Assembly: GCA_011390635.1 (NCBI GenBank)
Contig: JAABSA010000034.1
Location: forward strand, 1-39,004
Origin: Desulfotignum sp.
GTDB lineage: Bacteria; Desulfobacterota; Desulfobacteria; Desulfobacterales; Desulfobacteraceae
Direction: 5' to 3'
Length of the DNA: 39,004 nt
The number at the start of each line of letters is the position of its first letter. The first letter of the stretch is position 1. Below are positions 4,498 to 29,845 of this stretch, piece by piece. A program made the position numbers and the translations under genes. The notes beneath the pieces are model-generated. The model was not told where the DNA came from. It ran no database searches and saw only the letters and a list, made by a program, of their open reading frames with translations.

Positions 4498-4971
4498 ATG
4501 CAACGGATTCATAAAATTTCCTCGATTTCACCGACAGGCATTCGGCCATCCGGGAAAATGCAACGAACTGTACACATGCAATCTACTGTACACATGCAGC
4601 GAACTGTATATAAGCAGGCTGCTGCAGACCGGAAAAGAGCTACGCCGATGCAGCGATCTGCAGGCACCTGGAAATCCGCCGGCAGACAGCCACCCATGGG
4701 AATTGCGTTTGTGCCGGTGGTGTGCGTCTGGGTGGCGGGTCTGCTCCTTGCCGGCTCTGACGGCCCTTTCATGCCCTGGGTCAATGGGCTGGGAGCCCTT
4801 GTTTTTGCAGGTGCCAGCCTGGTGCTGGCCAGATTGTCGGCCCGGCTGGATGCGGCAGATCAAACAGGGTGCCCTTCACAATATTGCCGGCCAAAGCCCA
4901 TGGCCGAAAGGGCTATGGCGCAGAAAAAAGAATGTCCGAAGATCGGCCGGCCCTATGCCGTGGGGTTTTAG
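4498..4971 (+). CDS. Small membrane protein with N-terminal hexapeptide repeats, unknown function
   Basis: The 157-aa product has a strong ribosome binding site (AAAGGAG, eight bases before ATG 4498). The first 45 residues are basic and contain a tandem hexapeptide MQRTVH / MQSTVH / MQRTVY / KQAAAD. Two hydrophobic segments follow, about residues 67-86 (GIAFVPVVCVWVAGLLLAG) and 95-113 (NGLGALVFAGASLVLARL), then a basic tail. I recognise no family. Its position behind the S24 repressor and a candidate operator suggests a repressor-controlled gene. A competing frame over 4490-5005 exists, but it lacks the ribosome binding site and membrane-like segments. Confidence 0.5.
   Translation: MQRIHKISSISPTGIRPSGKMQRTVHMQSTVHMQRTVYKQAAADRKRATPMQRSAGTWKSAGRQPPMGIAFVPVVCVWVAGLLLAGSDGPFMPWVNGLGALVFAGASLVLARLSARLDAADQTGCPSQYCRPKPMAERAMAQKKECPKIGRPYAVGF
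4558..4629 (+). repeat. Four tandem 18-nt repeats inside the small membrane-protein gene
   Basis: Units at 4558-4575, 4576-4593, 4594-4611 and 4612-4629. The first three read ATGCARYSWACTGTAYAY and the fourth has diverged. The unit length is a multiple of three, so the frame is kept. ACTGTACA recurs in units 1 and 2. Confidence 0.75.
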
Positions 4972-17422: not shown

Positions 17423-17515
17423 TGGTTGGCTTGCTTGGTTCTTGTCCGTCTATCTATCTATCTGCCTTCCTGTCTGCTTGATTGCCTGCCTGTCTGTCAG
17501 TCCGGATGTATGTCT
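17423..17515. repeat. Degenerate tetranucleotide repeat tract upstream of lhgO
   Basis: On the minus strand the tract reads as about 16-20 four-base units of the type AGRY (AGAC, AGGC, AGAT, AGAT, AGAT, AGAC, GGAC). On the plus strand it reads CTAT, CTGC, CTGT and so on. Three perfect CTAT units lie at about 17450-17462. It begins about 25 bases upstream of the lhgO start, in the leader or promoter. Confidence 0.65.
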
Positions 17516-17613
17516 GGTCATGATAGTATCGGGGGTGGGGAAAATCAAGGCATGTTTGCGGTAATTACAGGGCAGTCGCATGGGAGAAAATTTTGTTCGG
17601 TTTATCGAAGCCC

Positions 17614-17686
17614 GCCCCCTGCGGGTGCCTTGTGACCGGCCCGAGATGGAATCTGACGGTCCTGTCACAAGGCACCCGCAGGGGGC
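17614..17686 (+). repeat. Inverted-repeat element, copy A (short form)
   Basis: Arms of 23 nt (17614-17636 and 17664-17686) pair perfectly. The 27-base centre begins CGGCCCGAGAT and ends TCTGACGGTCCT, the same core as in copies B and C but without their roughly 85-base middle. AGAT and ATCT in the centre extend the hairpin. Variable arm segment: CGGGTGCCTTG. No T-run follows. See copies at 17978 and 29619. Confidence 0.8.
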
Positions 17687-17902
17687 TTGGTCAATTTATC
17701 CGGGAGGTTTATCATCGTGCGATTGCCTTGTTCGGGAAGCGAAGGGCCTGCAGATTATGAATAGCCCTTCCGGCACGTATCCACCTGGGGAGAAATCCTG
17801 TGCCTGGCCTTTTGGCTATACGACGGTCCGTTAATTCTCTCCTTTAGAGATTTTTGAATATTTGCTATAATTGATTGTGTATTATAGATCATAGCAGGTA
17901 AA

Positions 17903-17939
17903 TGATACCCTTATACCCTTAATTATTAAGGTGGTATCA
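17903..17939. promoter_or_regulatory. Nested inverted repeat in the lhgO-tmc intergenic region
   Basis: TGATACC (17903-17909) pairs with GGTATCA (17933-17939). Inside it CCTTAAT (17917-17923) pairs with ATTAAGG (17925-17931). This is either a protein-binding palindrome or a hairpin. It lies outside the three-copy element family. The rest of 17690-17977 shows no gene. Confidence 0.4.
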
Positions 17940-17977
17940 AGTCATCTGAGAAGAACTATAGCAGTTCCTCGGCAGGA

Positions 17978-18139
17978 GCCCCTGGATGTATGCTGTGACC
18001 GGACCGTCAGAGCCGGAGGGGGCCTGGTAAAATATGCCGGGATAGATTTCAGCCAGAAGGCGGGTCGATGAACTTTATTGTTTTCATGCAACCGGGCCCA
18101 CGCAGGATCTCGGGCCGGGCGCAGCATACATCCAGGGGC
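17978..18139 (-). repeat. Inverted-repeat element, copy B (162 nt, minus orientation)
   Basis: Arms of 18 nt (17978-17995 and 18122-18139) pair perfectly. Read on the minus strand it begins CCGCCCCTG, then variable segment GATGTATGCTG, then CCGGCCCGAGATCC. After about 85 bases it ends with CCGGCTCTGACGGTCCGGT, the complementary arm and CAGGGGCT. Its length is identical to copy C. In the middle, ATGAA and TTCAT form a hairpin where copy C has TGATA and TATCA, and ATCCCGGCATAT matches ATCCTGGCATAT of copy C. No convincing ORF explains it. Confidence 0.8.
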
Positions 18140-18220
18140 GGCCCCGGCACCAGGACACTGCATGGGATGATGCAAAAACTGTTGCGCTTATGACAAATAT
18201 CCAGAGTAGCTTCAGGGTAC

Positions 18221-18249
18221 TTGACCCTCGGACGGCATGGGTATATAAA
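18221..18249 (+). promoter_or_regulatory. Sigma-70 type promoter of the iscU-like/tmc operon
   Basis: TTGACC (18221-18226), a 17-base spacer and TATAAA (18244-18249), 28 bases before the ATG at 18277. The position supports that start over in-frame ATG 18190. Confidence 0.65.
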
Positions 18250-18276
18250 GCGTGGAAGATAAGAAGGAATATCAGA

Positions 18277-18702
18277 ATGGAGAATAATAAAGAAATGAAC
18301 GATACTGATTTTTGGAACTGCCATTCCGTTGAATATCTGGAGATGGCGTTTGAATCCGGGCACAAAGAGGTGCTTCATCATCCGGACGGATATGGAAAAA
18401 GAACCGGGGATTGCGGAGATACGGTGGAATTTTATATCAGGGTAAGGGCGGGCAGGCTTGATCAGGTGTCTTTTACCACCCATGGATGTTTGAATACCAC
18501 TGCCTGCTGTAACACGGTGGTGAAGCTGACCCGGGGCAAAACCATTGACCAGGCCTGGGAGATCACACCCGATGATGTGGTGAACTATCTTCAGACCCTG
18601 CCCAAAGACCACGAACATTGTGCCCAGCTGGCTGTGGGAGGGCTTTATCTGGCGTTGTCGGATTTCCAGGCAGGTGCACACAAACAAGGAAAAACAGCAT
18701 GA
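18277..18702 (+). CDS. IscU/NifU-like Fe-S cluster scaffold protein
   Basis: The 141-aa protein has the three scaffold cysteine positions of the IscU/NifU N-terminal family: C46 (GDCGDTVEF, with the conserved Asp two residues on), C71 (THGCLNTTACC) and C115 (HEHCAQLAV). Extra cysteines occur at 77 and 78. IscU-type proteins build Fe-S clusters for transfer to apo-proteins in the cytoplasm. ATG 18277 has AAGGA in front and follows a promoter. Its stop overlaps tmcD (ATGA, 18699-18702). No cysteine desulfurase or other isc/nif gene is near, so a dedicated role in maturing the cluster-rich TmcB is inferred. Confidence 0.85.
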   Translation: MENNKEMNDTDFWNCHSVEYLEMAFESGHKEVLHHPDGYGKRTGDCGDTVEFYIRVRAGRLDQVSFTTHGCLNTTACCNTVVKLTRGKTIDQAWEITPDDVVNYLQTLPKDHEHCAQLAVGGLYLALSDFQAGAHKQGKTA

Positions 18703-29418: not shown

Positions 29419-29480
29419 GGAAATTTATGCCTGATGCCGGCGCTGGTGCATGCAGCAGGGCCATTGATCACAAAGGGATG

Positions 29481-29579
29481 AATCAACGGCGGATTAAGGA
29501 TGAATCAAAGATAGATCAATAGCGGATCAGGAAGAGATCAAGGGCGGATCAGGAAGAGATCAAGGGCGGATCAAGGTCC
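29481..29579. repeat. Nine phased 11-bp repeats with ATCA core
   Basis: ATCA (once ATTA) recurs at 29482, 29493, 29504, 29515, 29526, 29537, 29548, 29559 and 29570, always exactly 11 bases apart. The last six units begin GATCA. The units alternate GATCAGGAAGA and GATCAAGGGCG, so part of the array is also a 22-nt repeat. It lies between potA (minus) and copy C of the hairpin element. One-turn spacing suits a protein binding one face of the helix, or DNA bending. Confidence 0.85.
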
Positions 29580-29618
29580 GGATATGCCGGGCAGTATTGA
29601 ATGGTCAGGTCCGGACCC

Positions 29619-29780
29619 GCCCCTGGTGGTGTCCTGTGCCCGGCCCGAGATCCTCCGGGGCTGTTTGCCATGATAATTTTAGGGAAAAGAACCTATCAGT
29701 CTGGTACGCATCTGACATCCTGGCATATCTGCCCGGCCCCTCCGGCTCTGACGGTCCGGTCACAGGACACCACCAGGGGC
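29619..29780 (+). repeat. Inverted-repeat element, copy C (162 nt)
   Basis: Arms of 20 nt (29619-29638 and 29761-29780) pair perfectly. The variable arm segment is GTGGTGTCCTG against GATGTATGCTG in copy B and CGGGTGCCTTG in copy A. The core is CCGGCCCGAGATCC on the left and CCGGCTCTGACGGTCCGGT on the right. The middle contains TGATA and TATCA that can pair, and GGCATATCTG. A reading frame runs across it (29601-29966), but its similarity to copy B appears only in the shared core, so I treat it as non-coding. Confidence 0.8.
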
Positions 29781-29845
29781 TACCGCTGTTTACTGCCAGT
29801 CGATAGCGTTGTTGATCACCAGGAGGGGCTGCTGTTCACCGCCAG
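29771..29845 (+). repeat. Degenerate 29-nt direct repeat, two copies 46 bases apart
   Basis: 29771-29799 and 29817-29845 both start CACCAGG and end GCCAG with CTGTT inside, and match at 22 of 29 positions. The first copy overlaps the right arm of element C. The rest of 29846-29995 shows no gene. Confidence 0.55.

Follow-up and report, generated by a model that had tools for sequence, protein, structure and literature searches.

A stretch of 39,004 nucleotides from Desulfotignum sp. (GCA_011390635.1, contig JAABSA010000034.1), referred to as the window throughout, harbors segments in which conserved sequence blocks are enclosed by stems that change from copy to copy while they keep pairing. 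This raises the question whether the element encodes a structured RNA, serves as a hairpin of single-stranded DNA or is a mobile repeat whose arms are kept alike by templated repair. The initial annotation, made from the letters of the window, had placed two long copies (B and C) and one short copy (A) in a family with covarying stems around a shared core. Both core blocks were found exactly in B and in C, and the variable 11-nt closing arms, read directly, paired perfectly in A, B and C. The long hairpins and their core blocks are located as follows; R1 is the covariance model described below.

29618..29781, minus strand (proposed folding strand, complement of the strand as read initially): copy C, long hairpin, R1 match of 158.9 bits on the plus strand
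29640..29653, plus strand (as read): 5' conserved core block of copy C, exact match
29742..29760, plus strand (as read): 3' conserved core block of copy C, exact match
17977..18140, plus strand (proposed folding strand): copy B, long hairpin, R1 match of 170.5 bits on the minus strand
18105-18118 and 17998-18016, both minus strand: core blocks of copy B, exact matches

When the 19-nt block was searched in the window with at most three mismatches, three matches were obtained where 0.01 were expected. Two of these are the copies; the third, a near-match at 4751, lies inside an ORF and matches neither covariance model. Tandem GATCAAGGGCGGATCAGGAAGA-type repeats are located immediately upstream of copy C (window 29480-29575).

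In the genome to which the window belongs (4.09 Mb, 98 contigs), the same block was found with at most three mismatches at 34 places. Of these, 29 were judged to be real, two of them as a right half only, and the 27 full-length copies were aligned (A1) and used to build R1. Searched against this genome, R1 returned the same 27 long copies with a hairpin of ~162 nt and, in addition, 20 short copies (74-81 nt, ~77), together with wrong-strand echoes and a few weak matches. As R1 matches span 160-173 nt, the length of exactly 162 nt common to B and C is not a trait of the family. The element is built as one long hairpin, in which a variable outer stem of 19-22 bp is followed by a conserved core and then by an inner part. 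As read, the core is CGG-C-CCG-AGA / UCU-GA-CGG-U-CCG; on the complement strand it shows conserved A.G mismatches and a 2-nt UC bulge. Inward of the core, the long class has a variable inner domain and the short classes have a small loop. An inner helix had been described as well (ATGAA/TTCAT in B, TGATA/TATCA in C), and it is present in both copies, but RNAalifold gave no inner consensus pair over the 27 copies.

In the 27-copy alignment, 95.2% of the cells pair and two-sided changes occur at 16 pairs (59 cells). None of 500 shuffles reached any of the measures, and slid versions gave 3-8 two-sided cells compared to the 59 observed. The covariation thus lies above the shuffled and slid controls, which are controls without a phylogenetic null, and the copies, orthologous ones included, are not independent of each other. 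Before counting in the further alignments, two wrong-strand rows and duplicates were removed from A2/A3, and wrong-strand rows and duplicates from A5. The alignment and its controls uphold a repeated family with covarying stems around a conserved core, and the covariance-model search that had been suggested yielded more homologues, with compensated stem changes. The initial annotation recognised no named family, in agreement with the absence of any Rfam match at gathering score in the window; sub-threshold matches were to miRNA hairpin models and were dismissed as generic long stems. Searches of the full-text literature returned nothing for Desulfotignum together with 'inverted repeat', nor for Desulfobacteraceae together with MITE.

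All 13 Desulfotignum genomes matched R1 or R2, the model of the short class, both of which were run with strict filters in the genome searches. R1 had matches in 12 of the 13 genomes of the genus, the own genome included (2 to 46 each, both strands counted); G012, which R1 missed, has an R2 match, and G004 has R1 matches only. Beyond the genus, R1 gave one doubtful match in one of 23 other genomes of the family and none in 23 genomes from other families of the order, and the 11 of 389 genomes of the order that were matched by R2 all belong to Desulfotignum. An exact 23-nt core pattern was detected in 42 stretches among 84,980 species genomes, all of them from Desulfotignum sp. or 'Desulfobacteraceae bacterium MAG35' MAGs, and it had no match in viral contigs. 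A locus of another genus (L074, G028) carries a long hairpin with similar ends, lacks the conserved core and was not counted as a member. Judged by these sequence searches, the family looks restricted to a single genus, Desulfotignum.

The surroundings of the long hairpin were compared in 124 distinct copies, the top of the matches listed, from nine genomes (G000 to G007 and G010), with most copies coming from G000, G003, G006 and G007. Terminal inverted repeats of 16 bp (CTGRATATTTGCYATA) are located ~65 nt before and 35-50 nt after the hairpin, the left one reading most often GCCATAAG. Among these listed copies, 64 of 124 carry both repeats (at least 13 of 16 positions), 33 are intermediate and 27 have neither; the unit spans 261-288 bp in 63 of the 64 listed two-repeat copies and 327 bp in one. 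The repeat pattern had 47 matches in the own genome, compared to 0 for the reversed control. In the listed two-repeat copies, the identity of the 8-bp flanks was 0.53 versus 0.26 for shuffled partners and reached at least 7 of 8 positions in 17 of 64. Scored at the best length, a target duplication of 7-9 bp was detected in 36 of the 64, whereas 300 shuffles of the flanks gave 1.3 on average and at most 6. Sister strains were searched for empty sites, the check that had been asked for initially, by using the joined flanks as 64 queries against the loci fetched. Two filled/empty pairs were found, the only ones in this search, in which the sister site is without the segment between the repeats to within ~20 nt:

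G003:C80, filled, and G000:C7, empty
G007:C262, filled, and S25.Bin111 contig, empty

At L034 the G003 site carries a different remnant and was not accepted as a clean empty site. A 48-bp perfect palindrome consisting of the repeat ends alone bears the duplication TTCCCACC, which suggests that the ends may be sufficient for movement. Two of the 124 listed long copies lie inside a predicted ORF, the others being intergenic, and the long-class unit, judged by its length only, would have no coding capacity. The long class is almost certainly a MITE. A match to a known mobile repeat family had been named initially as an outcome that would speak against a structured element; that the 162 nt form the middle of a larger unit with repeats and duplications agrees with it in part, but no family can be named for this unit. 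The parts of unit B are:

17854..18204, plus strand: whole mobile unit B, repeat to repeat, with terminal repeat matches in the own genome
17854..17869, plus strand: right terminal inverted repeat of B, TTGAATATTTGCTATA, one mismatch to the consensus
18189..18204, minus strand: left terminal inverted repeat of B, CTGGATATTTGTCATA, one mismatch

With 351 bp, unit B exceeds the usual length because extra sequence sits in its right linker. A target duplication was searched at its flanks and none was clear; the flanks adjoining copy C contain no terminal inverted repeat. Several further arrangements were seen around long units. Within the extra linker sequence of unit B (window 17870-17960) a small palindrome occurs (GATACCACCTTAATAATTAAGGGTATAAGGGTATC, minus strand). 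One long element is nested inside the left arm of another (L003/L057, G000:C39:32617-32850), and the long copies L078, L156, L160, L202, L220, L226, L229, L065 and L052 are bordered on their right by another repeat, roughly 90-260 bp in size.

Copy A is located close to copy B and represents a short class, S1:

17613..17687, minus strand (proposed folding strand): copy A, short hairpin, class S1, R2 match of 94.4 bits on the plus strand
17570..17582, plus strand: left outer arm of unit A, GGGCAGTCGCATG, arm pattern
17716..17728, minus strand: right outer arm of unit A, CGTGCGATTGCCT as read on the plus strand, arm pattern

Unit A is 159 bp long and its hairpin has a predicted folding energy of -64 kcal/mol (z -8.9). 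The outer arms of S1 are of the GGGCAATCGCATGTA type, unlike the long-class ends, and are present at both ends in 11 of 32 copies; no target duplication was detected in these 32. The long and short classes have the hairpin core in common and differ in their ends, a pattern that suggests a genus-wide hairpin module acquired by two or more element backbones. A single intergenic region (window 17570-18204) holds both A and B, and in the matching region of G007 (contig C139) the corresponding hairpins are separated by a gene that encodes a DDE transposase of 482 aa. In G003, an S1 unit has a long unit as its immediate neighbor. In the typA/aminotransferase region (L136-L145), a short hairpin is found between convergent genes in seven genomes and is decayed in three; all that remains of it in G004 is the outer stem, which forms a tiny hairpin, and a different hairpin occupies this place in G000 and G007. 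L043 and L058 have different hairpins and agree completely in the ~60 nt visible to the right of them, which suggests an exchange of modules or a nested repeat.

The deviations from Watson-Crick pairing point to the strand that folds. In the outer stem of the 124 listed long copies, 2256 cells are Watson-Crick pairs, and the exceptions as read are 64 A.C, 11 G.U, 8 C.U, 5 A.G and 6 other. Since an A.C as read is a G.U on the complement, the complement is probably the folding strand. By columns of the outer stem, 14 have an excess of A.C and one an excess of G.U (sign test, p 0.001). Over all 37 long-class pairs, 70 C.U cells were counted versus 14 A.G, i.e. A.G mismatches on the complement, and one-sided changes between orthologues comprise 25 A.C versus 6 G.U. 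Six copies termed S2' (G008, G009, G011 and G012; two are orthologous) have GGAA opposite TCCGA in the core, which is A.C as read and G.U on the complement. Of two G001 copies, L327 has a G.U as read in the core where L317 has a full pair, and this counts against the strand assignment. By columns, the asymmetry was not significant in the short class (15 to 9, p 0.31), nor did it reach significance when all 37 pairs of the long class were taken (20 to 9, p 0.06). The predicted RNA folding energy of the long copies was on average 6.6 kcal/mol lower for the complement, which was the more stable strand in 104 of the 124 listed long copies; among the short copies this held for 33 of 54. Copy B is predicted to fold on the plus strand with -88.4 kcal/mol (z -6.0). 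Among the 124 listed long copies, 20 are not more stable on the complement, and copy C belongs to these (-88.1 kcal/mol on the minus strand, -91.6 on the plus strand). With DNA parameters the same strand preference was obtained in 121 of the 124 listed long copies; as both parameter sets agree on the strand, RNA and single-stranded DNA are not separated by it.

We consider it quite probable, from the base-pair statistics and the folding models, that the element folds on the complement of the strand read initially, with copy C itself to the contrary. The bias of A.C over G.U could be due to selection for folding or to transcription-linked deamination of the non-template strand, and either cause would make the complement the RNA-like strand. 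That the folded species is RNA rather than DNA is somewhat favored.

Over the right repeat of B, a promoter-like site reads into the hairpin:

17843..17871, plus strand: promoter-like site, TTTAGA, 17 nt, TG-C-TATAAT

It matches 10 of 12 consensus bases, with a TG before the second hexamer, and is a consensus match only; it is the best of six promoter-like sites in 17500-18300, with 1.0 expected in shuffles. TGNTATA(A/G)T occurs in 28 of the 64 right repeats of the listed two-repeat copies, and 36 of the 64 are without the full box. No terminator-like site was found near B.

Orthologous sites were compared in 19 of 27 pairs that passed a divergence filter, which dropped eight. Substitution amounted to 6.5% in the outer stem and 2.8% in the core, compared to 11.7% in the inner part, 13.3% in the linkers and 12.5% outside. 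In 30 orthologue comparisons, six of which have only one matching flank and some of which share a member, 26 two-sided and 40 one-sided changes were counted, and the two-sided ones appear to exceed what independent changes would give. Over all copies, 99 two-sided changes are transversion-type and 54 transition-type. This is close to the 2:1 ratio from one-step arm-to-arm copying, so that the covariation is no clean sign of selection on RNA. Adjacent double changes were found between orthologues (L044/L168, L172/L218), and at one site with matching flanks the elements of two genomes are only 67% identical (L039/L167). Given the transversion-rich and adjacent changes and the different elements at one site, templated copying and conversion among copies probably act, and arm-to-arm templated copying probably contributes to the covariation.

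To the explanation that combines these features we give an even chance: a MITE that encodes a strand-specific hairpin, probably as RNA, with its pairing kept by constraint and templated copying together. The foremost alternative is that the copies are plain relics of a MITE, passive palindromes without function whose arms are matched by template switching and gene conversion. The mutation pattern described above, the nested and chimeric copies and a gene context without clear bias all fit such relics, but the 64:11 strand asymmetry, the lower divergence of stem and core between orthologues and the good hairpins of copies that have no terminal repeats would be left unexplained, and we regard this alternative as somewhat unlikely. 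Among the listed long copies, the mean number of non-Watson-Crick pairs in 19 was 0.67 in copies with neither repeat versus 0.88 in the others. Good hairpins in the 27 of 124 listed copies that have neither repeat fit a separate module, but do not fit a hairpin whose sole use is in transposition. It seems unlikely that the hairpin represents a stand-alone small structured RNA, genus-wide and multi-copy, which is older than its carriers, was captured by at least two unrelated backbones and also persists without them; if true, mobile elements would share RNA domains as they do protein domains.

A candidate for the mobilizing partner was found on contig C73, in the same genome as the elements, where an exact terminal repeat lies 265 bp past the stop codon of a gene for a 562-aa DDE_Tnp_1 transposase (PF01609, 2.8e-16; best NCBIfam score 33.1, cut-off 115). 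The left end of this element is off the contig, and only the 16-bp repeat is clearly common with the MITE end. In a survey of PF01609, 30 of 31 matches were fetched (7 of 13 genomes), one locus of which has the exact terminal repeat; a complete autonomous element was not found among the 30 loci, and a remnant in G007 is located ~1.6 kb from an element fragment. On these sequence features an IS4-type transposase is tentatively named as the partner. Behind the candidate transposase gene, CCTGTGAACGGCCCCCGTCAG (L340:1891-1925) resembles the hairpin core on the complement, which may be chance.

In attC hairpins, extrahelical bases mark the strand, and in REPs mismatches may do so. In a similar manner, the complement could act as a hairpin of single-stranded DNA for a transposase, relaxase or replication protein, with the mismatches and the bulge marking the strand. 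The conserved core mismatches and bulge and the strand preference that persists with DNA parameters are in line with this, as is the foot of the hairpin on the complement, which is GGAG in 82 and GTAG in 5 of the 124 listed long copies and resembles the GTAG tag of REPs. The foot led to a check for a REP/RAYT system, which was rejected: with R1 and R2 run at E 1 on flanks of up to 1.5 kb, neither hairpin was found at any of the 30 Y1/REP-transposase loci fetched (of 43 listed). Moreover, pairing with the opposite foot is possible for the AG of GGAG, which is thus not clearly an unpaired tag, and the long-class repeats with duplications of ~8 bp would fit DDE transposition, not single-strand transposition. 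According to PMC3733652, REPs have stems of 5-13 bp and an unpaired GTAG or CGTC tag, and their subfamilies show complementary stem changes, in which G.T pairs are read as an indication that the RNA has a function. The Desulfotignum family likewise consists of hairpins with complementary stem changes among subfamilies; it differs in its far longer outer stem, in the terminal repeats and duplications of the long unit, and in that the fetched Y1 loci are not flanked by it. Single-stranded DNA as the substrate appears distinctly improbable.

A cis-acting RNA of the neighboring genes, such as a leader riboswitch, an attenuator or a terminator, would suit the intergenic position, the divergent neighbors of 44 of 77 listed long copies with both neighbors predicted and the short copies between convergent genes at typA and in L071, but it is highly improbable, as background gaps are similarly divergent (20 of 43 at 100-500 nt, 28 of 78 at 100 nt or more) so that enrichment is not clear and not claimed, the orientation in tandem contexts shows no evident strand preference (14 to 9), the short copies of the own genome are spread over 4 divergent, 4 convergent and 9 tandem contexts (17 with both neighbors; 19 of 20 tallied), and the B region has no terminator-like site.

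The nearest known systems are Correia/NEMIS and ERIC-type repeats (PMC2649163, PMC2229807), which the family resembles in outline. Correia/NEMIS elements (CREE) of Neisseria have inverted repeats, target duplications, several length classes and promoters made by their ends, and hairpins in their transcripts are bound or cut by RNase III (PMC2649163, PMC2229807). The long units of Desulfotignum are likewise short, with inverted repeats, target duplication and length classes. In the CREE the end repeats themselves form the RNase III stem-loop, whereas Desulfotignum has a separate inner hairpin with an asymmetric core and a covarying stem; host and, by eye, sequence are also different. ERIC/RU-1 and YPAL/RU-2 are repeats of roughly 100-200 bp, the transcripts of which form long stable stem-loops (PMC2229807), and the family differs from them by two unit types with one hairpin core, by duplications of ~8 bp and by its occurrence in one genus in our searches.

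The MITE with a strand-specific hairpin would then work as follows. The long copies are non-autonomous MITEs with duplications of ~8 bp and would be moved by a transposase from elsewhere, for which the IS4-type DDE enzyme is the candidate. Inside the unit, the hairpin would fold on the complement of the strand read initially, and the right terminal repeat, with its promoter-like extended -10 box, might drive transcription of this folding strand. By analogy to Correia/NEMIS and ERIC, each insertion may bring a gene for a small hairpin RNA, or a processing site, into an intergenic region. Pairing would be maintained jointly by constraint on the strand that folds and by templated copying from arm to arm.

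Provided that the strand has been assigned correctly, the more than 100 related copies in a few genomes amount to a natural mutational scan of a mobile hairpin, which would reveal the pairs at which wobble is tolerated and the strand on which this is so. This would also provide a cheap test for other bacterial MITEs, to distinguish a palindrome that acts as RNA or single-stranded DNA from a relic. One hairpin in two unit types would bear on the origin of non-coding RNA genes from mobile elements.
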